64,000 bases of DNA from assembly GCF_000970285.1 (NCBI RefSeq), contig NZ_CP009516.1:3265036-3329035 (forward strand), in the 5' to 3' direction. The stretch's first letter is position 1; each line of letters starts with the position of its first letter. Of the stretch, positions 4,731 through 59,120 are shown in pieces. The translations under genes were made by a program, and so were the position numbers. The stretch comes from Methanosarcina horonobensis HB-1 = JCM 15518. GTDB lineage: Archaea; Halobacteriota; Methanosarcinia; Methanosarcinales; Methanosarcinaceae. The notes beneath the pieces were generated by a model. It did not search any database, was not told where the DNA came from, and saw only the letters and a program-made list of their open reading frames with translations.

Positions 4731-4802
4731 TGTCGCCACAAAACAGGCAATGAGAAAGAGAAAAAAGCAGGGAATAAGAAGCTTGAAGCCCACAAAAACT
4801 GA
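4731..4802 (+). pseudogene. Leftover 3' end of a second CARDB/COG1361 gene
   Basis: Just before permease copy 2 the plus strand encodes a Lys-rich tail ending KKLEAHKN and a stop, matching in composition and position the tail of the 1640-3058 protein. DNA around the stop is also similar to that around 3030-3095. This indicates that a CARDB-permease unit was duplicated and that most of the second CARDB gene was later lost. Confidence 0.55.
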
Positions 4803-4835
4803 AAATCAAACCGATAGAAAACGGAAGGATGCAAG

Positions 4836-6068
4836 ATGAGAAATTCAACCTACCTGAAAATGGGCCTGAATATGCTTGTGCATAGCAAACTCCGAAGCTG
4901 GCTGACCATTATCGGGATAGTTATAGGGATCGGGTCTGTTGTTGGTATCCTCTCTCTCGGGGAAGCTATGGAAGAGCAGGTGCAGAGCAGGCTTGCCGAA
5001 ATGGATCTTACAAAAATAACCATTTCCCCCGGATATATTAAAGCATCTTCAAACATGCACGGACCTAGAGGTGGATGGTCCAGGGAAGGTGGTACGACAA
5101 CGGATGTCGAATTAACCGATGATGACATTAAGGCACTTCAAGGCCTGGATGGTGTACAATATATAGCCGGTCAGATTTCCGGCAGTGAACCCGTGGTTTA
5201 TGCCGCACAAAATGCAACTCTGTCAATCACAGGTGTGGACCCTCAGGTCTGGAAGTATATGACTACTCTGAAAACGCAATCCGGAAGGCTACTTGAACCC
5301 TCGGATAAGTATGTCGCAGTTATAGGAAGCGGAGTTGCCAGTGGAATTTATGACCAGGATATCGGAGTCAATCAGGTAATAACGATCAATGGTAAAGCAG
5401 TGCGCGTTGTCGGAATTCTTACAGAAGAGGGGCAGGGCGACAGAAGCATTTACATGCCAATCGATGTAGCGGTAAACCTGATTGACGATGCAGAAGACGG
5501 TGTTTATAATTCAATCACGGTAAAAGCCAAGAGTGAAGACCTTGTGGACGGACTTATGGAAGATATCGAAAAGAAGCTCATGATTTCGAGGCACATTATC
5601 AGGGATGACGACAGGGACTTCTCTGTTAGCGCCTCAAAGTCTATGGCTGAGTCTGTTACCGAAATGACAAGTTCGATGACACTCTTCCTCGGAGCCATTG
5701 CAGCCGTCTCCCTTCTTGTAGGAGCTGTGGGTATCGCCAACACCATGTTTACCTCTGTACTGGAAAAGACAAAAGAAATAGGGACTATGAAAGCCATCGG
5801 GGCGAAAAATAGGGATATACTCATGATTTTCCTCTTTAACTCCGCAATGGTAGGGCTTGTTGGAGGCATCCTTGGAGTTGCTCTGGGGACCTTTGTTTCA
5901 TCCGGGCTTCAGGCGATGATGGGACAAATGACATCAGGAGGTGGAGTGAGTCTTCACCTGATGGTTGAAGGCCTGGTTCTCGCAATAGTAATAGGTGTGA
6001 TCTCAGGAGTTGTTCCTGCGTACAGAGCCTCGAAATTAAGGCCAGTAGACGCACTGAGATATGAATAA
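4836..6068 (+). CDS. MacB/FtsX-family ABC transporter permease (copy 2)
   Basis: 410 residues, same architecture as copy 1: N-terminal helix, MacB_PCD periplasmic-type domain, three C-terminal FtsX helices, ending VDALRYE. It starts at ATG with GGAAGG eight bases upstream. It is clearly a tandem duplicate of the 3039-4322 gene. The extracytoplasmic domains differ at many positions, whereas the FtsX helix region is almost identical at DNA level. Two different permeases could form a heteromeric exporter, or each may need an ATPase coded elsewhere. Confidence 0.85.
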   Translation: MRNSTYLKMGLNMLVHSKLRSWLTIIGIVIGIGSVVGILSLGEAMEEQVQSRLAEMDLTKITISPGYIKASSNMHGPRGGWSREGGTTTDVELTDDDIKALQGLDGVQYIAGQISGSEPVVYAAQNATLSITGVDPQVWKYMTTLKTQSGRLLEPSDKYVAVIGSGVASGIYDQDIGVNQVITINGKAVRVVGILTEEGQGDRSIYMPIDVAVNLIDDAEDGVYNSITVKAKSEDLVDGLMEDIEKKLMISRHIIRDDDRDFSVSASKSMAESVTEMTSSMTLFLGAIAAVSLLVGAVGIANTMFTSVLEKTKEIGTMKAIGAKNRDILMIFLFNSAMVGLVGGILGVALGTFVSSGLQAMMGQMTSGGGVSLHLMVEGLVLAIVIGVISGVVPAYRASKLRPVDALRYE

Positions 6069-6076
6069 ACGGAGAA

Positions 6077-6106
6077 AAGAAAGGGATCAACTCTTTCTTG
6101 ATTTTC
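6077..6106 (+). terminator. Terminator hairpin after permease copy 2
   Basis: AAGAAAG (6077-6083), nine-base loop, CTTTCTT (6093-6099), then GATTTTC. It lies eight bases after the stop, between convergent genes. Confidence 0.5.
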
Positions 6107-6259
6107 TTGCTTGACCGGAAGAAGAAAAAGCAGGGAAAAGTAAGGCAGATTTATGGTCTTTTATTTGTCAGCTCTTTTTGAAAAAGAACCTGTATGCAAG
6201 ATTTGTAAGAGACATATTTTTACTTATTGAACAGGAACTTGCAGAACAAAACCTTCAAT

Positions 6260-6937
6260 TTACACAATTTTCCTTCCAAACATCACTGCAAAATGATAGT
6301 ATTTATATATGCAACTGACATCACAAAACCCTGCTTCTTTAAGCCATTCCAGCTGTTGATCCAGTTTCGAATCCTTATCAAGTTTGGTCCGTTCATAACC
6401 AGCCAGTATTTCTTCCTCGGTAAGGCCGCTGTTTTCGACGTAGTGTCTCCATGTTGTCTTATTTAGATTATCTATGAATGGAGTTTCTCCATGTACCTGA
6501 TCCGCGTTGATGAAAATCCCATTCTCTTTAAGAATGGAATAACTTTTTTTATAGAGCTTATTTTTCTCTTCATCTTCCAGATGGTGGATAGACAGGGCTG
6601 ACACTATCATATCGTATTTTTCCGTGAAATCATATTTTGAATAATCTGCTATAATATATTTTACGTTTGAATTACCTCTGAATCTGTCTTTTGCCACATC
6701 CAACATTTTTTCCGAGATATCAATAAGAGTAAGTGATGCCCCAGGATATCTTTTCATCAGAAATGCCGATAGAAGCCCTGTTCCGGCACCCATATCCAGT
6801 ATTCTTGGGCTTTCCGTACCTACTGATGCCACGGATACCGCTGTTCCATAGAAATCATCAAAGCAGGGTATAAACTTCTTTCTCTGTTCATCATACTTTT
6901 TTGAAACAGCATCAAACTTTCTTTGAACTTCGCTCAT
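6260..6937 (-). CDS. Class I SAM-dependent methyltransferase
   Basis: 225 residues. Motif I is ILDMGAGTGLLS, followed by the acidic strand-2 end LTLIDIS and the post-I region DMIVSALSIHHLEDEEK typical of the Methyltransf_25/11 (UbiE-like) families. The start ATG is preceded by GGAGAA at good spacing. The substrate cannot be told. It stands alone, convergent with the permease operon. Confidence 0.85.
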   Translation of the reverse strand: MSEVQRKFDAVSKKYDEQRKKFIPCFDDFYGTAVSVASVGTESPRILDMGAGTGLLSAFLMKRYPGASLTLIDISEKMLDVAKDRFRGNSNVKYIIADYSKYDFTEKYDMIVSALSIHHLEDEEKNKLYKKSYSILKENGIFINADQVHGETPFIDNLNKTTWRHYVENSGLTEEEILAGYERTKLDKDSKLDQQLEWLKEAGFCDVSCIYKYYHFAVMFGRKIV

Positions 6938-7102
6938 GTCTTTCTCCGGTTTTTACACTATGGGCTGGCATTTCTTTTCTTTTGCACTGCATATACTTTG
7001 TACTGCATACCATTAATTCGTTTTGACCTGTCAACCGTATCAAGTGTTTGTTTAATGTTTTGAAACTGATCCTGGTGTATTCTGTACAGAGCTCAAAAAT
7101 AA

Positions 7103-7110
7103 TTTATATT
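7103..7110 (+). promoter_or_regulatory. TATA box of a probably leaderless transcript
   Basis: TTTATATT is centred about 24 bases upstream of the ATG at 7130, and no Shine-Dalgarno sequence lies between them. In archaea this spacing puts the transcription start at or next to the start codon. Confidence 0.5.
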
Positions 7111-7129
7111 TTGCGGCATTATTAGAACC

Positions 7130-7378
7130 ATGTATGAAAAAGATAAAGCAGCAGCCAGTGCAGACAAGAGCCGAGAATTTGGCGTACTGGGAGATGTCCT
7201 GAGGGAACTGCAAAGGGAAGAACTGGAGGAGTTTGAGACATGCCAGAAGGAAACTCAAGAAACATGCACGGCACAGAATACAATAAAGATGATGATAGAG
7301 ATCAATAAAACGCTAAAAGAAATAGCAGAGACTCAGAAGAAAATATTAGAAGAGATTAAAAAAATCAGGACCGAATAA
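7130..7378 (+). CDS. Small acidic coiled-coil protein, function unknown
   Basis: 82 residues, rich in Glu, Lys and Gln. A probable long amphipathic helix covers the second half, with heptad-like spacing of Ile and Leu (MIEINKTLKEIAETQKKI). Two Cys residues lie mid-protein (ETCQKETQETC). No membrane span and no known domain. It begins without a ribosome-binding site, but a TATA box stands at the distance expected for a leaderless mRNA. Confidence 0.6.
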   Translation: MYEKDKAAASADKSREFGVLGDVLRELQREELEEFETCQKETQETCTAQNTIKMMIEINKTLKEIAETQKKILEEIKKIRTE

Positions 7379-7949
7379 GTTCCAGTTCATGTTTTATTTT
7401 TTCGCATTAACAGATGTTTTCAATTTTCAATTTTCAATTTTTACTGCTGTAGGTTTAGTGGTTTAGAGTAAAAAAGGTCTTAGAATCAGTTCAGGAAGAA
7501 TTTCAAAAAATTTCCTGAGAAATAATATTTTAAGAAATCTCCTGAAAAATAATTTATGGGTGTGGGGGATATTAAAGAGGTTTTGTCCAATTTAGAGAGA
7601 TCTGTACATACGACAGTTCCCCACAACCCATTCAATATAATACTAAAGTTGTATTTATACTTCACTTCTGAGAATGAAAAGAAGATTTGTCCGTCACCCC
7701 AAAACAAGAATTAAGTATAAACATAATTCCTCCAGCTGGATTTTTAAAATTAAGACAAAAAGTGATTTAAATAGAAGGTAGAGACGAACTAGAACAAAAT
7801 CTAAGCTAAAACAAAAGTAGACCTTTACAATTTTCAAATTCTGAAGAAAATCCTTATTAAAGTTTTTCTGGTTTTATCTTTAATGCACCTTCTTTGGTTT
7901 TATTCTCTTACGCGTTCCACTAGTTTGTCTTGCGTATAGTCTGTTTTGC
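7379..7949. other. Intergenic, possibly one short ORF
   Basis: AT-rich. Around 7498-7555 similar strings recur (TTCCTGAGAAATAAT and CTCCTGAAAAATAAT). An ATG at 7556 opens a 52-codon frame ending at 7714 (MGVGDIKEVLSNLERSV...). It has no ribosome-binding site and no recognisable motif, so it is mentioned but not called. Confidence 0.4.
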
Positions 7950-8105
7950 TTATTCTTTCAGTTTCATCGGTTCGCCGCAACAGTCCATATCGCCGGTGCA
8001 GCCTGCAGAGCAGCTGTTATCTACGCATTCATTTACTACCTGTAGTTCAAACCCGCACCTCTCACAGACAAGTATTTGGCCCTGTTTCAGATCGGTACAA
8101 TTCAT
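7950..8105 (-). CDS. Desulforedoxin-like small metal-binding protein
   Basis: 51 residues. It starts at ATG 8105 with GGGGAG seven bases upstream and a TATA-like string (about 8117-8127) beyond it. The sequence has VCERCGFE (a CxxC knuckle) and ends in DCCGEPMKL, the hallmark of the iron-binding desulforedoxin/desulfoferrodoxin N-terminal fold. Between them is an unusual Cys-containing insert (CVDNSCSAGC), giving eight Cys in all. Iron binding and a redox or oxidative-stress role are inferred from the motif. Confidence 0.8.
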   Translation of the reverse strand: MNCTDLKQGQILVCERCGFELQVVNECVDNSCSAGCTGDMDCCGEPMKLKE

Positions 8106-50172: not shown

Positions 50173-50853
50173 ATAGTTAAAAAGGGCTTGCCCAGCATTA
50201 GAGACTTTCCTGTAGGCAAATTTGGAAAACTGGTTACTGTAGACAGGGCGGAAATAGAAAGTTTCAGGAGTATAAAAAACGTAATGGAAGAGTAATTTGA
50301 TTCCAAACTTGAGAATGGAGAGCTGGGCTGGATAAAGTATTTTTTAGTACCAATGCAGGACGGGGAATTTCTGGACTTTGAGACCATGCATCCGATAGGA
50401 AAATTGATATTCGTTTTTGTCGGAAGTACACATGACAGGCTTAAAGACTTCTATGAATTTTGCAGCTACTCAAATATACAGAGCAAGCCTTATCCGGGAA
50501 TGGATCCGCGCAGAAAGATCTCAAACAAATGTCCTGATTTCCTGAGCAGACTGAGAGGGTATGTAAATATTCTCAGACTAAACCAAGCGAATGAAAAAGA
50601 CGAAACCTATATAATCAGCAGAGCAATTCAGTTACACTCTTTAATTGAAGAAAATGCTCCGAAAGTTATGAGGGAAAACAATGCACATGTCAGTTGCGGA
50701 ATATTAAATGCCCTGATTAATGTGCCGGAATATATGCACGGAGTTCGCTCAATGCAGGCAATTGTAGAAATGAGCATACTTCACGAAAAAAACTCATGGG
50801 AAACGGCTTATCTGCCGCCAAAAGACCAGCTGAGCTTCATATTAAAAGCATAG
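50173..50853 (+). pseudogene. Truncated AAA-type ATPase, cut by the IS element
   Basis: From the IS boundary one frame reads GLPSIRDFPVGKFGKLVTVD, meets TAA at 50293, and continues FDSKLENGELGWIKYFLVPM, QDGEFLDF, HPIGKLIFVFVGST, then CPDFLSRLRGYVNIL and YMHGVRSMQAIVEMS. These match the C-terminal half of a bacterial/archaeal AAA ATPase family as I remember it. The TAA stands where Walker B would have Glu before FDS. The Walker A half is absent. Confidence 0.6.
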
Positions 50854-51079: not shown

Positions 51080-51817
51080 TTGTATAACCAATCTGAGTTC
51101 GGCAATCTCGAAAATTATCTCCTCGAAAAGAAATCCTTTAAAAAGACCAGCTGTGAACATACTCTTAACACTTATGTTTTTACCGGTGAGGTTGAGCTAA
51201 AAAAACACAGATTTAAGAAGTTTTCCCTTCTGCTAATAAACACATATGATGAAAAAGCCCTTGAAATATTGAGCAAATTTTTTTTCCTCCTGTGTATAAC
51301 TATAGCTCTGGTTACAATAATTAATTTTCTTGGTAATGACATTGCAGACTGGTTTTATATTTTGGGTATAGTGTTCTCTCTTATTCCTCTCATTATCTCT
51401 CTTTGTATACAGAATGTGCTTGAATATTATCAGGATACTTTTTGCAAAAAATGCGGAAACAAGCTTGCCTGTGAAGAAGTAGGCGAACCGATCATGAAGG
51501 AAACGAGCAGTTTTGGAGACTATACACTGACAGTTACAAGGCACTGGAAGTGCAGATACTGCGGAAATGTGGACACAAGAGAAAGCTCTGAGAATATCTT
51601 TGCAGAACAGGGAGAAATGCTGCCTGCAGTTTCCCTGAAAGGTATCGAGTGCAGGAAGTGCGGTGGAATAGGCACGATTGTTGAAACCAAGAGACCAGAT
51701 ATAAAAGAGATTGGAAAGAAAAGACTTACCAGAAGGTACTACAATTGTACGTTATGCGACCATGAGGACATCAGTGAAAGTGAGGAAATAACCTTTCACG
51801 GCACTCACACTGGTTAA
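51080..51817 (+). CDS. Membrane protein with three zinc-ribbon CxxC pairs, unknown function
   Basis: 245 residues from TTG 51080 (no clear ribosome-binding site; the frame is open about 20 codons further without a start codon). Two helices (FFLLCITIALVTIINFLG and WFYILGIVFSLIPLIISLC). Then CxxC pairs at FCKKCGNK, WKCRYCGN, ECRKCGG and NCTLCDH, giving two zinc ribbons. The cytosolic tail may bind nucleic acid or protein. No family recognised. Confidence 0.65.
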   Translation: MYNQSEFGNLENYLLEKKSFKKTSCEHTLNTYVFTGEVELKKHRFKKFSLLLINTYDEKALEILSKFFFLLCITIALVTIINFLGNDIADWFYILGIVFSLIPLIISLCIQNVLEYYQDTFCKKCGNKLACEEVGEPIMKETSSFGDYTLTVTRHWKCRYCGNVDTRESSENIFAEQGEMLPAVSLKGIECRKCGGIGTIVETKRPDIKEIGKKRLTRRYYNCTLCDHEDISESEEITFHGTHTG

Positions 51818-51926
51818 CTAAAAAACCGGTTTTTAGCAGAAAAAGGATTATTATCCTGACCTTACAGCCCGGATCTTGAACGTCTCTTGAAGCAAAAGTA
51901 AAAAAACTGAAAATATTAAGTCTATA

Positions 51927-52310
51927 TTATTCTATTTTTCCTAATTCCCTTTGAGTATCAGAAATTGAAATATCCAGGTACTTCATAGTCGTTGACAAGT
52001 TCTTATGTCGGAGATACTTGCTCACTTTTGCGAAAACATAATGTAATCGCTTGGTCGAAGGTTGCAATGTTCACAATATCTTTCAATCCTTTTCATCACC
52101 CTGTTATCACAGGGAGCTTTCTGTATCTCCGTTTCATCCCTGCTTTTACCACCCCAAATTTCAATGCACTCGTTCTTTTTATCGAGATCACGAACTTTTA
52201 CATTGATTGCTTCGCTAACTCGCAATGCAGGTGTATAAAGCAGATACATCCGTATTTCATACTTTTCAGCAAGTTCAGGCTAGCTAAAGGTTTGATGTAA
52301 TTCATCGGGT
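51927..52310 (-). pseudogene. Tyrosine recombinase (integrase) with central deletion
   Basis: A 75-codon piece (52022-52249) has YLLYTPALRVSEAINVKVRD, including the first catalytic Arg, up to YIMFSQK. In another frame directly downstream follows KYLRHKNLSTTMKYLDISIS with the catalytic HK and Tyr, ending at 51927. The HxxR region between them is deleted. Upstream (to about 52310) further frame breaks are seen. An integrase relic marks old integration of mobile DNA. Confidence 0.8.
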
Positions 52311-52883
52311 TGTAACCATTGTTTATTATATCTTGTTAAAAAATTAAAAATTTTTTAGAAATATATAAATATTGTTATTCAAGTGCAAAATGCATCAACA
52401 ACTTCAAAATGATGCATTCATGTTTGCCTGGATATACACTATATTTCAGTCAATAGCGAAAATGAAATAATGATGAAAATGGGAGTTTACCGGAACGCAA
52501 CAAAAGGTATCTTATGGTGTATTAATACAAAATTCTATTTTTTATAACAATTTAATCATAGGTTTTACTACAAAACCTGTGTGTTAATGGAACCAAGAAA
52601 GAAGATACTTTGTTTGCATAATAATAACTTTTCATGCTTGTGAATAACTAATAAGTTAAAAGTTGAGTTTAGAAAAAAATTAAGTACTTGTATAAATAAT
52701 ATATATTCAAATAATCCCATTGATAAGCTATCCGGAGAATCTGGAAAAGAGTTCTCAATTAAAAAAGTAAAGGAAGCTATGTGACAATAAGCTATTGCCT
52801 TTGAGTCACATTCCTCTTTCGAGAAATGATCTTTAAGTCTATTGATAGATTCCGTGATTGCTTAATAAAAGAACGGTGTAAAC
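52311..52883. other. Intergenic, AT-rich
   Basis: No gene seen. Near 52338-52358 AAAAAATT-AAA-AATTTTTT can form an AT hairpin. Confidence 0.45.
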
Positions 52884-53368
52884 ATGGGTTTTTTTGGAGA
52901 ATTATTTGAAGATGTAACTGGAAAAAGTAAAAGACCTGAAATTAAAGGTAGTAGATTTGAAAATTTTGTGTCTAATGAAATATTTACCGACATCTTATTT
53001 GATCTTGTAGAAATGACAAGGATTTTGATTCGAACAAAGAAAGGTTCGAAGAAAGAAGCCTGAATCCAGATTTTCTTTTTAGAGACAAAAGAACTGGAGA
53101 AGAATTTTGGGTTGAGGCTAAACATCGAAATGGTCTTTTTAAGAATAATAAAGGACAACTTGTTTGTGAAATATGCAAACAATGGCAATTAGACAGATAC
53201 AGAGATGTAGAGAAAACTACTGGAAAAAAAGTGTATATATGTTTGGGTATTGGTCAAGACCCCAGATATCCAGAAACAATTCATTTAATACCTGTTTCTG
53301 ATGCTTATCCTCAATTGTTCCAAAGCAAGCTCAAAGAAACACTGTTATGGAGAAACCCTGAGTTTTAA
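52884..53368 (+). pseudogene. PD-(D/E)XK nuclease-like gene with one frameshift
   Basis: The first frame reads MGFFGELFEDVTGKSKRPEI and on to ILFDLVEMT. One base is missing near 53012, most likely from GAAAATG. The next frame continues DSNKERFEERSLNPDFLFRD, KRTGEEFWVEAKHR, then EICKQWQLDRYRDVEKTTG and VYICLGIG. PDFLFRD...FWVEAKHR is a PD-(D/E)XK nuclease core. Restored, it would be about 161 residues. AT-rich codon use suggests a foreign gene. Confidence 0.75.
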
Positions 53369-53547
53369 GACTTCAAATGGAGCAATTGTTGAAGTAACAT
53401 CTAATCTTTAACAACTCTAATAATTTAGTGCAAGGATGGAGTTTTAACCCACGAAATCCTTAGATGACAGTTCTAGAGAATTCGTATGCTACTATAATTT
53501 TTAATTTTTTTCAAAAAATTATCCTGTATAAATAGTTCAGAAATGAC

Positions 53548-54273
53548 TTATCCTTGATTAGTGGCCATTTTCCCTTTGTTTATCAGTTCAGGATGATCAT
53601 TTTTCTTGTTATAGTTCTGAGCCGAATGTATGAATAGAGTTTCAAATATATCTATAAATTTTTTATTTGTGTCTTCAAAAGGAAGGATTGCAAACCAGAT
53701 ACTTTCTTTTTTGAATAATGAGAAATCTAATGCTCCATATAGACGTTCACAGGACTGTATTGTTATTTTTTGCTCTTCTTCTATCCGTTCCTTAATCATT
53801 TTCTTATCGTTCTCAAACGTTGTTCTAAAAATTTCTAACTGTAATGGATAATAATCTCTTAAAATTTCAGAAATACTACACTGAGTTGGATATTTACGTA
53901 TTGTACCATTATTTTTAGATATATATCTGCTAAATAATCTTTCTTCAAATGATGCTTCCGTTTTGCCTATATATCGGGGTATGTCATCACAACCCCAAAG
54001 GTAAATTCCTGGTTGTTTAAAAAGAGGATCGGTTTTATAGCCTGATGCTGCCGTATAAGGTACTTTATGTAAAAAAAGGTCATCCTTGCACTTACATAGA
54101 CCGTTGTTATTTAATTCCTGTATCCATATATCAAATATTTTGTCACAATGGTTTTGCAAAGATGTGGACAAACTATAGCTTAAACTCGTAGAACTACCAA
54201 AAATATCTTTTAATACTTCTTTTCTTTCAGGTGTTGACTCTATTTTTTCTTCTAGCGATTCAAGGTACTTCAT
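53548..54273 (-). CDS. GIY-YIG nuclease-like protein
   Basis: 241 residues. The central part has PGIYLWGCDDIPRYIGKTEA and SFEERLFSRYI, matching GIY...YIG and the following Arg of the GIY-YIG fold. A helical N-terminal region (about 1-80) and a C-terminal region with KMIKERIEEEQ and IFETLFIHSAQNYN surround it; the last resembles the conserved Glu-Asn end of the fold. No ribosome-binding site is clear. Lies 190 bases downstream of the DUF6602 gene on the same strand, probably the same unit. Confidence 0.75.
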   Translation of the reverse strand: MKYLESLEEKIESTPERKEVLKDIFGSSTSLSYSLSTSLQNHCDKIFDIWIQELNNNGLCKCKDDLFLHKVPYTAASGYKTDPLFKQPGIYLWGCDDIPRYIGKTEASFEERLFSRYISKNNGTIRKYPTQCSISEILRDYYPLQLEIFRTTFENDKKMIKERIEEEQKITIQSCERLYGALDFSLFKKESIWFAILPFEDTNKKFIDIFETLFIHSAQNYNKKNDHPELINKGKMATNQG

Positions 54274-54463
54274 ATAAACTAAACGAACTATAACATATTA
54301 ATAATTTTAGATGAGATTCGGCCTAGATTTTAAATAAGAACTCAAAAACTACGTATATAGAAAACGAGGATTAAGATCAGGAAAACATACAATTAGCAGG
54401 AAAAAATATAGTGTGGATTAGGGTGAAAATTTGTTTAAGCCCTTTTTTGGGACGCATATAGTA

Positions 54464-55303
54464 TCAATTCTTAAACGTAAAGACAGATCCTTTTCTTTGA
54501 AGTTCTCCTAAATATGGAGCATATTGTATGGGCATAATACATGGTAAATATGTCTGGAAAAAATGCCTACTTGTAATCAGATAGAAAAGCAATAAAGCAT
54601 CTTCTGTTGAAACCATGACTAAATCTGAATTTTCTTCTGGTAATGCTTCAAATTTTGATATATCGGGCAACCAATTTGTTATAAGTCCTTTATTCAGAAC
54701 ACATATAGTATCAATTCTTAAATGTACAGGTAGGTCTTTTTCTTTGAATTTCTTAGAAAGATAATTGTAAAGAACCTCTAAATTATCTGCCTCATAAGCA
54801 AAAATGTAATAATTAACAGGGCAAATCTCCAATTCTTTGCCATATTGTAAAATGTTTATTCTTAGATTTTGAGGTGGTAGTACATATGCCGCTTTTTCAA
54901 GTTTTTTTACGCTTTCCATATTCACTATACAGTTATCAATTTCTTGCTTATTTAATTTGGTTTTAACTTCAATAATTGCATAAACACATTCGATTGGTAT
55001 CACACGGATTTTTTTGTTACCGTTTTTATTCTCATAAAAAATAGGCGTCTTTGCAGAATCTGATATTATAATATCTAATTGTCTACTTATACCGCCTTTC
55101 GTATCAATTACGAAACCAGTTGATATATCTAAAGATTTTGGGAGATACTGAATAAAGAAATTTCTAAAAGTTTCTTCATTAATTTGACCTTTTTCTCCAG
55201 AGTGTGGAATAGCACAACGTACCTGGTCTAACTCTGCTTTCATTGAACTGGAAATGTTTTTAAAAATTTCCCGAATATCCACTTGGAAATCTTGACTAGC
55301 CAT
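54464..55303 (-). CDS. DUF6602-type nuclease-like protein
   Basis: 279 residues. N-terminal helix region (REIFKNISSSMKAELDQV), then GGISRQLDIIISD and VYAIIEVKTKLNKQEIDNC, which give the D...ExK pattern of the PD-(D/E)XK superfamily. The C-terminal part has STEDALLLFYLITSRHFF. The assignment to DUF6602 is from memory of the family. Such genes often occur near restriction and defence genes. No intact methyltransferase is nearby. Confidence 0.65.
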   Translation of the reverse strand: MASQDFQVDIREIFKNISSSMKAELDQVRCAIPHSGEKGQINEETFRNFFIQYLPKSLDISTGFVIDTKGGISRQLDIIISDSAKTPIFYENKNGNKKIRVIPIECVYAIIEVKTKLNKQEIDNCIVNMESVKKLEKAAYVLPPQNLRINILQYGKELEICPVNYYIFAYEADNLEVLYNYLSKKFKEKDLPVHLRIDTICVLNKGLITNWLPDISKFEALPEENSDLVMVSTEDALLLFYLITSRHFFQTYLPCIMPIQYAPYLGELQRKGSVFTFKN

Positions 55304-55583
55304 AGAAAAACACAGTTTTAATTATTATTATTGCTACATAGTTTTTTTCCTTTTGATGGAAGGATAGAAATATTATCTACAAATGACAGGGTTCTCTCCC
55401 TAAGCACTGATGGCTCAAGTTTTAGCTTTTCGGAAAATCAACTCCTAAACACGTTTTATTTGTCTGGATTCCTGCTGTTTTATTGGCTTTTCTTTTTTCT
55501 TCAAAGAACCTATAAAGAGTCTTTTCTATGAGTACCCTTAATTTATAACATCCGAAGCTATACCCTTTAAGAATAATTTCTTT

Positions 55584-55751
55584 TTAGGTTTTCTCACTGA
55601 TCTTTTTACCTTTAGCCTGTTTATACAAATCTAAAGAGTATTCCGGCCTTTCTGGTGGATTAAAATCAAAAATAGGTTCCAAACTTTCAATGTAATCTAT
55701 AATAGCTTCAGGATTTGAAGCACAGAGTTCAAGAATTTCTTCACGATTCAT
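55584..55751 (-). CDS. Short acidic ORF, unknown
   Basis: 55 codons from ATG 55751: MNREEILELCASNPEAIIDY, then FNPPERPEYSLDLY and a Lys-rich end. The start resembles the leading helix of IS66-type transposases, but the rest does not. Ribosome-binding site weak. It may be a stand-alone gene or a relic. Confidence 0.4.
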   Translation of the reverse strand: MNREEILELCASNPEAIIDYIESLEPIFDFNPPERPEYSLDLYKQAKGKKISEKT

Positions 55752-56038
55752 AACAGTAAAAAGGAACAGTTTTATATCATTTTTCCGAAATGTAAAGAAA
55801 TTGAACTCAATTCTTTTTTATAACCTGATGATCGTACCTATGTGCTCTAGGTTGACTTTATCTGTGATCTCTGTGTAAACTCAGCGACCTGAACCCCATA
55901 ATAAAGGAAGATAATTTAAATATACAAAAGCGTACATGCCGACAAGAAACCTAAACCTATTTCCTAAAGAAAAACTAAAAGCACAGCACAGCTCAGTGGT
56001 AGTTTATTAATAAACTATGAAATGTAGGAGTGAGTAAA

Positions 56039-56299
56039 ATGAGTGAATACGAATTAACTGACATTGAAAAAAAAACCCTGGATAATTGGATAATATTAAA
56101 CATAATCCCACAAAAATCACCAAATAAAAATTACACTAGTTATGCACTTAAAAATTTATTTGAACAAGCACCAGATGGTTTCTTTATCACAAATAAGCAG
56201 TTTAAAGAAGCGATGGTCAGATGTAATTTCTTACCTGTAAATAAAAATAAATTAAATTGGGAATTCCGAATTTCCCTAAAATCTCCAGGGTTGAAATAA
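56039..56299 (+). CDS. Small DNA-mimic or phage-type protein, unknown
   Basis: 86 residues from ATG 56039, with GGAG eight bases upstream. Contains NKNYTSYALKNLFEQAPDGF and FITNKQFKEAMVRCNFLPVN, a pattern I recall from short proteins of phages and mobile elements in bacteria. No catalytic motif is visible. Stands alone. Confidence 0.65.
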   Translation: MSEYELTDIEKKTLDNWIILNIIPQKSPNKNYTSYALKNLFEQAPDGFFITNKQFKEAMVRCNFLPVNKNKLNWEFRISLKSPGLK

Positions 56300-56570
56300 T
56301 CTAAATGAGGTTATAAACCTAACATATATTGAAAAAGCTTATCCAATTTTCCCAAGTAAAGGAAACGTTTCCAACAGAGTTCCAAAAAACGCATTTCTAT
56401 TGATAAACAAAATATGTTTTGTCGTTTACTATGGAGTTAGGGGACAAGTATAAACGACAGACAAAAGGATACATACGATATATACAACGGACATAAGACA
56501 AAAGACTCTCAGTATTTCAAATATTCTGATTTTTATTAAGAACCGTCTGCCCAATCGGAGTCAATTCGAA

Positions 56571-56807
56571 CTATCCAAATGTATCTAGATCCTTGGGTTC
56601 ACCAGGAAAACTATGATCCCTAATTTTCTGTTTATATTCAATAAGACCTAAGTCAAAAACGGATTGATATTGATGATCAGTGTAACCTCTTTCACATACG
56701 TCCTCAAACAAACCATCAAAACATCCATATGGGCAAACTTGGGACGAAAGAAAAGAAAGTAGATCTGATATTTGTGATTCTTTATCAAAAATACCTCGTT
56801 CTATCAA
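56571..56807 (-). CDS. Small conserved-looking protein, unknown
   Basis: 78 residues from TTG 56807; GGAG lies nine bases upstream. Includes VCPYGCFDGLFEDVCERGY and GEPKDLDTFG. Codon pattern looks coding, but no family was recognised. Confidence 0.45.
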   Translation of the reverse strand: MIERGIFDKESQISDLLSFLSSQVCPYGCFDGLFEDVCERGYTDHQYQSVFDLGLIEYKQKIRDHSFPGEPKDLDTFG

Positions 56808-56885
56808 TCCCTTTACTCCACCAATCTCCTCAAAGCTAATATTTCAACTAATAATACTTTTTTTATTTCAGGTTACAGAAAGATT

Positions 56886-57401: not shown

Positions 57402-57552
57402 TACTGAACAATACGCTTTAAGATTATTTAATGGTTAGTACTCTTTAAAAAACCAGAATACTGAAGAGAAGAACAAAATTGAAAAATCTCAAGGCCAAAA
57501 CTGAAAACCAAAAAATAAAGTAATAAAAGAAAAAAATATGAAAATAATAGAC

Positions 57553-58290
57553 TTAAAGCACATATCTCCAGCCATCTTTTTTCAGGCTTTTCCTGTGCAC
57601 CTCATAGCCCGGCATGAGCTCCCCGACGAGCTTCCAGAACCTTGCAGAATGGTTTTTCTCCTTTACATGGCAGAGCTCATGTACAACCACATACTCTAGC
57701 TGTTCCGACGGAGCCATTACAAGCTGAAAATTAATCCTCAGGATATTGTCCGCAGAGCAGCTTCCCCAGCGTTTCTTCTGGTGCTTTACCTTAAAAGTCG
57801 GAGGATCTATTTTCAATTTTTTTGAATAAATTCTCAGGAACCTGTCAACTTCCAGTTCTGCACAGTCACTATAAAAATCCCATATTGTCTTTTTTATCAG
57901 GGCTGGCTTCAGTTCCTCAGGCGCATTTTCAGGAATGAAGACAGTAATTTCAGACCCGCTAAAGGAAGCAGAAGATTTTTTGATTCCTTCCATAGGTAAA
58001 ACTTTCAGGGGATATTCTTTGCCCAGATAGAGATATTTTTCTCCGTCAGTATATTGTTTCTCCCTGATGGGCAGCCTGTTTGCCTCAAACCAGTCAAGTT
58101 TTTCCCATACCCAGCCAGCCTTCTTCCGTACCATATCTTTGATAACCTCACGGCTAAGCCCATGAGGGGCTCGAAATTCAACTTTGAGATCCGGGCGGAC
58201 TACTATCGCTGCTTTCCTTCTCTTTTTGCTATAGACTATTTCGTAGTCTAATGTCCTGCCGCAAGCTTTAATACTGTCGTTTTTTCTCAT
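57553..58290 (-). CDS. YgjP-like metallopeptidase (DUF45)
   Basis: 245 residues. Zinc site VVHELCHVKEKNHSARFW (HExxH-like HELCH plus a distal His), preceded by KKRWGSCSADNILRINFQLV, the family signature. The N-terminal half (RKAAIVVRPDLKVEFRAPHG) is also typical. Usually linked to restriction or mobile loci in prokaryotes. Function not known. Confidence 0.9.
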   Translation of the reverse strand: MRKNDSIKACGRTLDYEIVYSKKRRKAAIVVRPDLKVEFRAPHGLSREVIKDMVRKKAGWVWEKLDWFEANRLPIREKQYTDGEKYLYLGKEYPLKVLPMEGIKKSSASFSGSEITVFIPENAPEELKPALIKKTIWDFYSDCAELEVDRFLRIYSKKLKIDPPTFKVKHQKKRWGSCSADNILRINFQLVMAPSEQLEYVVVHELCHVKEKNHSARFWKLVGELMPGYEVHRKSLKKDGWRYVL

Positions 58291-58606: not shown

Positions 58607-58888
58607 TCAGGCATAAGCGATGTCCATATCATATGCCCGTGTATAATGTTCAAAGATTAAAAAGGTAAGAGTGTTGCTGGTACTGTCAAAAGTATAAACC
58701 AATACGAAGGGTCCTATATGAATCCTCCATTTTCCCTTAAACTCAGCCTCAAGAGGATAGCCCATTTCCGGTTTATAAGCCAAGAGAAGAAGGCGTTTTT
58801 TTACATAATCATAGACCGGCCGATCGAGGCTGTATAGCTTTTTAAGGTTTCTGCGAACCGACGGATGAACTGCTACTTTATACGTCAT
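58607..58888 (-). CDS. RelE/ParE-type toxin
   Basis: 93 residues. YKVAVHPSVRRNLKKLYSLD at the start, PLEAEFKGKWRIHIGPFVLV and the end FEHYTRAYDM are typical of RelE mRNA interferases. The start ATG overlaps the stop of the antitoxin (ATGA), the usual toxin-antitoxin layout. The antitoxin frame is broken, so it is unclear how the toxin is held in check. Confidence 0.88.
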   Translation of the reverse strand: MTYKVAVHPSVRRNLKKLYSLDRPVYDYVKKRLLLLAYKPEMGYPLEAEFKGKWRIHIGPFVLVYTFDSTSNTLTFLIFEHYTRAYDMDIAYA

Positions 58889-59120
58889 TGTTCTACCTTT
58901 TTGAGAAATTCGTCAATCTCAAACACAGGCGAGTGGTGCTCTAAGCAGTCCTTTTCTGCCTTTCGGACTTTTAAAGAAAAGGAGGGCTGAAAAGTAGTCT
59001 CTGCAGGGTAGCTGATCTCATTAAACTTTATTTCCAATTCCTTCAGTTGATTAAAAATCTCTGCAAGTGTCGTACCTATCCCTCAATCAGTTTGTAAGGA
59101 CTTTTAATAAGTTCATTCAT
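58885..59120 (-). pseudogene. Antitoxin partner of RelE, frameshifted
   Basis: ATG 59120 gives MNELIKSPYKLIEG then a stop. One base further the frame continues TTLAEIFNQLKELEIKFNEI, SYPAETTF and ends FEIDEFLKKVEQ, with its stop overlapping the toxin start. A single lost G in GAGGGATAGG restores one reading of about 78 residues. Confidence 0.75.

Follow-up and report, generated by a model that had tools for sequence, protein, structure and literature searches.

The window analysed in the present study is the whole 64,000-nucleotide stretch at positions 3265036-3329035 of the source genome, a single contig of 5.02 Mb. Two intact open reading frames (ORFs) on its minus strand, at 53548-54273 and 54464-55303, are separated by 190 bp and lie, together with several small or broken genes, inside a segment of low GC content. 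The features are given below with the basis of each assignment.

51792-56865, no strand: accessory insert, ~5.07 kb (congener comparison and GC content)
52022-52249, minus strand: tyrosine recombinase fragment (Phage_integrase, 75 aa; Pfam, E 3.6e-7)
52884-53368, plus strand: frameshift-interrupted ORF that contains a PD...ExK-like string, possibly a broken third nuclease gene (reading of the sequence)
53548-54273, minus strand: putative GIY-YIG family gene, 241 aa (motifs and UvrC profile alignment)
54274-54406, minus strand: region upstream of the GIY-YIG gene, conserved in genome G110; includes an almost identical block in which an AT-rich stretch is TATA-like
54428-54506, minus strand: 79-bp duplicate, 83% identical to 54673-54753 inside the DUF6602 gene, overlapping the stop codon
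54464-55303, minus strand: DUF6602 gene for a NucC-fold PD-(D/E)XK nuclease, 279 aa (Pfam, PDB match, AF2 model, Foldseek and VIA-align)
56030-56299, plus strand: 89-aa ORF matching phrog_9576 (E 2.1e-16), a family of functionally uncharacterized phage proteins

An accessory insert of apparently mobile, mostly decaying genes

The segment 51792-56865 is missing from four congeners (G010, G023, G007 and G008) in which both flanks are present, and it is therefore regarded as an accessory insert. In G010 and G023, the genes that flank the insert (to 51791 and from 56866) are only 190-200 bp apart, and the left flank stops at 51787-51791 in G007 and G008 as well, and in these two similarity restarts at 57549-57553. 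The GC content of the insert is 31.4%, compared with 40.8% in the remainder of the window. No direct repeats of at least 11 nt were found at the insert ends, and a close relative of either nuclease gene was found in none of the 30 congeners examined. The ORF at 56030-56299 has one match among phages. Overall, the insert looks like a small assembly of independent mobile genes, most of which are decaying. A 55-aa ORF at 55584-55751, also within the insert, presumably resembles the N-terminus of an IS66-type transposase, and to the right of the insert, 58607-59037 contains a gene for a ParE-type toxin, preceded by a short ORF that possibly encodes its antitoxin.

The original prediction, made from the sequence alone, described two intact same-strand genes with different nuclease folds in AT-rich, foreign-looking DNA with no methyltransferase nearby, and this description is borne out by the two ORFs, by their assignment to PF20247 and, through motifs and a UvrC profile, to the GIY-YIG enzymes, and by the composition and distribution of the segment. 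No DNA methyltransferase was found among the ORFs of the insert, and a standard restriction system was rejected on this ground. The prediction also placed a broken third nuclease and a broken ATPase beside the pair. The former is plausible from the PD...ExK-like string of the frameshifted ORF at 52884-53368, although family searches with this ORF gave no match; the latter was not supported, since 50353-50853 has no significant Pfam match and lies outside the insert.

Fold and active site of the DUF6602 protein

The product of 54464-55303 was assigned to DUF6602 with a wide margin (PF20247, E 1.1e-29, 102.8 bits against a curated cut-off of 27), and its closest PDB chains by sequence are all NucC, the endonuclease that cA3 activates in CBASS and type III CRISPR systems (best E 2.6e-17). 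An AlphaFold model, for which the input was 12 sequences (the window protein and those of related loci, leaving out the homologs from the phylum-genome search), reached a mean pLDDT of 78 and a pTM of 0.82, with a weak stretch at residues 142-158. In Foldseek searches with this model, NucC occupied the top 14 matches (E 2.5e-17). The fold is common to the whole chain in VIA-align comparisons with NucC (PDB 6p7p, 6q1h, 6uxf and 7zgv; Z 20.4-23.9), and the superposition on the cA3-bound E. coli protein covers 232 residues in the range 5-267 of the model (Z 23.9, rmsd 2.9), whereas the next family after NucC, the BbvCI restriction enzyme, scores Z 10.5. The two proteins are similar in size, and the window protein differs by an insertion of ~15 residues around 142-158. 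The catalytic residues D77, E112 and K114 correspond to D73, E104 and K106 of E. coli NucC, and this D/E/K triad is invariant in an alignment of 14 DUF6602 and NucC proteins. Both the fold and the catalytic triad thus follow from the sequence and the model.

The final residues of the ORF derive from the local duplication at 54428-54506 and could impair the protein. The rearranged tail is probably tolerated, since a homolog in genome G066, with 48% identity, ends at about the same place. It is nevertheless conceivable, if unlikely, that both nuclease genes are inert remnants heading to decay, in keeping with the broken neighbours inside the insert and with the rearranged tail; against this, both ORFs are full length with their catalytic residues intact, and the GIY-YIG gene has a dN/dS of 0.38 in comparison with its G110 copy. 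We prefer to regard the two genes as passengers of the insert that are still intact.

The trigger of the DUF6602 protein

The residues R53 and T226 of E. coli NucC, whose numbering agrees with the E. coli chain, are those that we take to be the contacts with cyclic tri-adenylate (cA3). In the alignment of 14 proteins, the window protein has S and Y at the equivalent positions, in a comparison whose C-terminal half aligned at only about 20% identity. Both residues are kept in the two solved NucC chains used, in an archaeal NucC that adjoins a CD-NTase (SMODS) gene in genome G180, in a NucC encoded beside a nucleotidyltransferase in Caballeronia and in a copy from Rhodococcus that has ThiF and JAB genes as neighbours. 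The remaining DUF6602 proteins are mostly without them, with one phage copy retaining R53. Neither a cyclase gene (CD-NTase) nor Cas10 was found within the insert. Because both of the presumed contact residues are replaced and no cyclase gene is nearby, the trigger is probably not cA3, and for the same two reasons the window protein was not filed as NucC. It is regarded as a nuclease with the NucC fold, from a branch for which another trigger is probable.

An alternative, which we consider quite unlikely, is that the protein is a true NucC answering cA3 made in trans by the type III CRISPR system of the genome. NucC proteins are established effectors of type III systems (PMC11229360, PMC8682760), and a Cas10-like protein whose GGDD motif is intact is encoded in the genome. 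However, the gene for this protein lies about 930 kb from the locus and adjoins an apparent membrane effector gene of its own (CARF assigned by eye), no SMODS-family CD-NTase was found anywhere in the genome, and S and Y stand in place of the two presumed cA3 contacts. A nuclease with a different trigger is therefore the reading we retain for the window protein.

Two loci seen during this work are recorded here. The type III-like CRISPR locus L032 (G000:C1:2380000-2399000) contains a short Cas10-like protein with GGDD, in which no HD domain was found, several RAMP-like genes, a reverse transcriptase-like gene and two putative membrane proteins whose tails are CARF-like. In L014, from the archaeon G180 (same family as the source genome), NucC and CD-NTase genes form a CBASS-like pair at 5744-7238, with type I restriction genes adjoining.

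A small family of probable GIY-YIG proteins

The 241-aa protein encoded at 53548-54273 has no match to Pfam, PADLOC, PHROG or NCBIfam models. Its motifs follow the order GIY-(7)-RYIG-K-T, an arginine-rich helix and then E211 and N232, with G89-Y91, Y101-G103, R112/R116, E211 and N232 conserved among its homologs; the motif residues are invariant in three homologs, down to ~33% identity, one of which has the forms GLY and YVG. In hhalign comparisons with the UvrC N-domains of related genomes, GIY pairs with G-x-Y and YIG with YVG, and the score of 29.7 exceeds the best of 200 column-shuffled controls (19.6), at an hhalign probability of only 35%. A single-sequence AlphaFold prediction was too poor to use (pLDDT 36), and a search with the three-sequence profile found no PDB chain. 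The motifs and the weak profile match make the GIY-YIG assignment likely. The pattern of GIY, YIG, R, E and N and the UvrC alignment are features of the GIY-YIG superfamily, which includes the UvrC N-domain and restriction and homing enzymes; in contrast to its members, the protein has an N-terminal region of its own of ~85 aa, an extended spacing between motifs R and E and no family model.

Among the 393 genomes of the phylum, intact relatives occur only in G110 (74% identity) and G133 (31-33%), so the family is found in three of them. No relatives were found in plasmids or phages, a search with the GIY-YIG alignment found none in viral contigs, and single-protein scans of genome contigs and viral contigs found nothing. 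The match to G110 spans 53541-54406 at 81.6% DNA identity, that is, the gene and ~130 bp upstream, and ends before the DUF6602 gene. Because this upstream region travels with the gene, the gene probably carries its own promoter within 54274-54406. Type I restriction genes and an Mrr-like gene lie close to the G133 copy, and a decayed fourth copy, at another site of the same genome, adjoins hsdS fragments. Beside the G110 copy (L011), two proteins without a family match were observed, one of 331 aa at 4753-5748 with a possible PD-(D/E)XK string and one of 217 aa at 7360-8013 with a possible HEPN motif.

The gene is solitary, sporadic and compact and has an upstream region of its own, and it might instead encode a self-spreading homing endonuclease. 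This is improbable, because the three copies differ in their flanks with no common insertion target seen, two of them adjoin restriction genes, and the gene has no intron or intein context. A restriction-like endonuclease remains our preferred reading of the GIY-YIG protein.

Probably two passengers rather than one system

The original prediction raised the possibility of a new defence or element-encoded module, an idea that would fail if homologs of the two genes never co-occurred or if their active-site residues were not conserved. Conservation of the active sites was found in both families, and the genes are carried on element-borne foreign DNA, but the two do not appear to form a module. 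Among the 393 phylum genomes, DUF6602 is present in 13 and the GIY-YIG family in the three already named, and the source genome is the only one with both; G110 and G133 have no DUF6602 gene at all, and the annotations of six DUF6602 plasmid loci name no GIY-YIG neighbour. The adjacency of the two genes is most likely incidental, since the moving unit seen in G110 excludes the DUF6602 gene; this argument draws on only three intact GIY-YIG homologs and few loci, and the statistics are thin. A single two-component defence module is highly improbable: the common strand, the 190-bp gap and the survival of both genes amid decayed ones speak for it, but no co-occurrence was found elsewhere, and the GIY-YIG unit moves alone with its own conserved upstream region. 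One operon for the pair was rejected on account of the same upstream region and the same lack of co-occurrence. The proposed two-nuclease system is not worth pursuing as a unit.

Herein, we propose that the two genes ride on one small accessory insert as independent passengers, one for a stand-alone NucC-fold nuclease and the other for a GIY-YIG endonuclease that resembles restriction enzymes, and we consider this explanation reasonably probable. First, the DUF6602 protein would be a stand-alone double-strand DNA nuclease and, judging from its relatives, might cut DNA as a defence effector activated by infection; in place of cA3, it might respond to another ligand or to a protein, or it might have no trigger. 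Second, the GIY-YIG protein would be a stand-alone restriction-like endonuclease, the gene for which, together with its own promoter region, may have entered various loci rich in defence genes in related archaea. A role in host defence is suggested for either protein by its family and its neighbourhood. From these analogies, the most likely functions are a signal-activated DNA nuclease for the former and a separate restriction-like endonuclease for the latter. The GIY-YIG family described here is small and without an existing family model.

Relatives of the DUF6602 protein

The DUF6602 family holds NucC and many relatives, and a literature search found no paper under the name DUF6602. The inspection covered about fifteen DUF6602 loci of viral contigs and plasmids, the plasmids through their annotation (six read) and the viral neighbours as ORF lists only. 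According to the annotation, the neighbours on plasmids include type I restriction genes, CD-NTase, ThiF with a JAB protease, and Abi with SEC-C. The DUF6602 proteins of prophages and plasmids that are solitary or borne in operons resemble the window protein in keeping the catalytic residues and not the cA3 residues, and in their solo or accessory context. They differ in being mostly bacterial, and some have a fixed SEC-C partner, which is absent at the window locus. It is possible, and we advance this tentatively, that solitary DUF6602 proteins constitute a large second branch of the NucC fold that has lost cA3 sensing, responds to another infection signal and has reached archaea via small mobile inserts. 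Dividing the family by the cA3-contact residues predicts that the members linked to a cyclase need cA3 and that the others do not. DUF6602 and SEC-C are a candidate two-gene system: in two viral contigs (L022 5001-6172 and L023 5001-6172) a gene for a small SEC-C motif protein directly follows the DUF6602 gene, and on an Acinetobacter plasmid (L074 3150-4327) the same two genes stand in this order behind an Abi gene.
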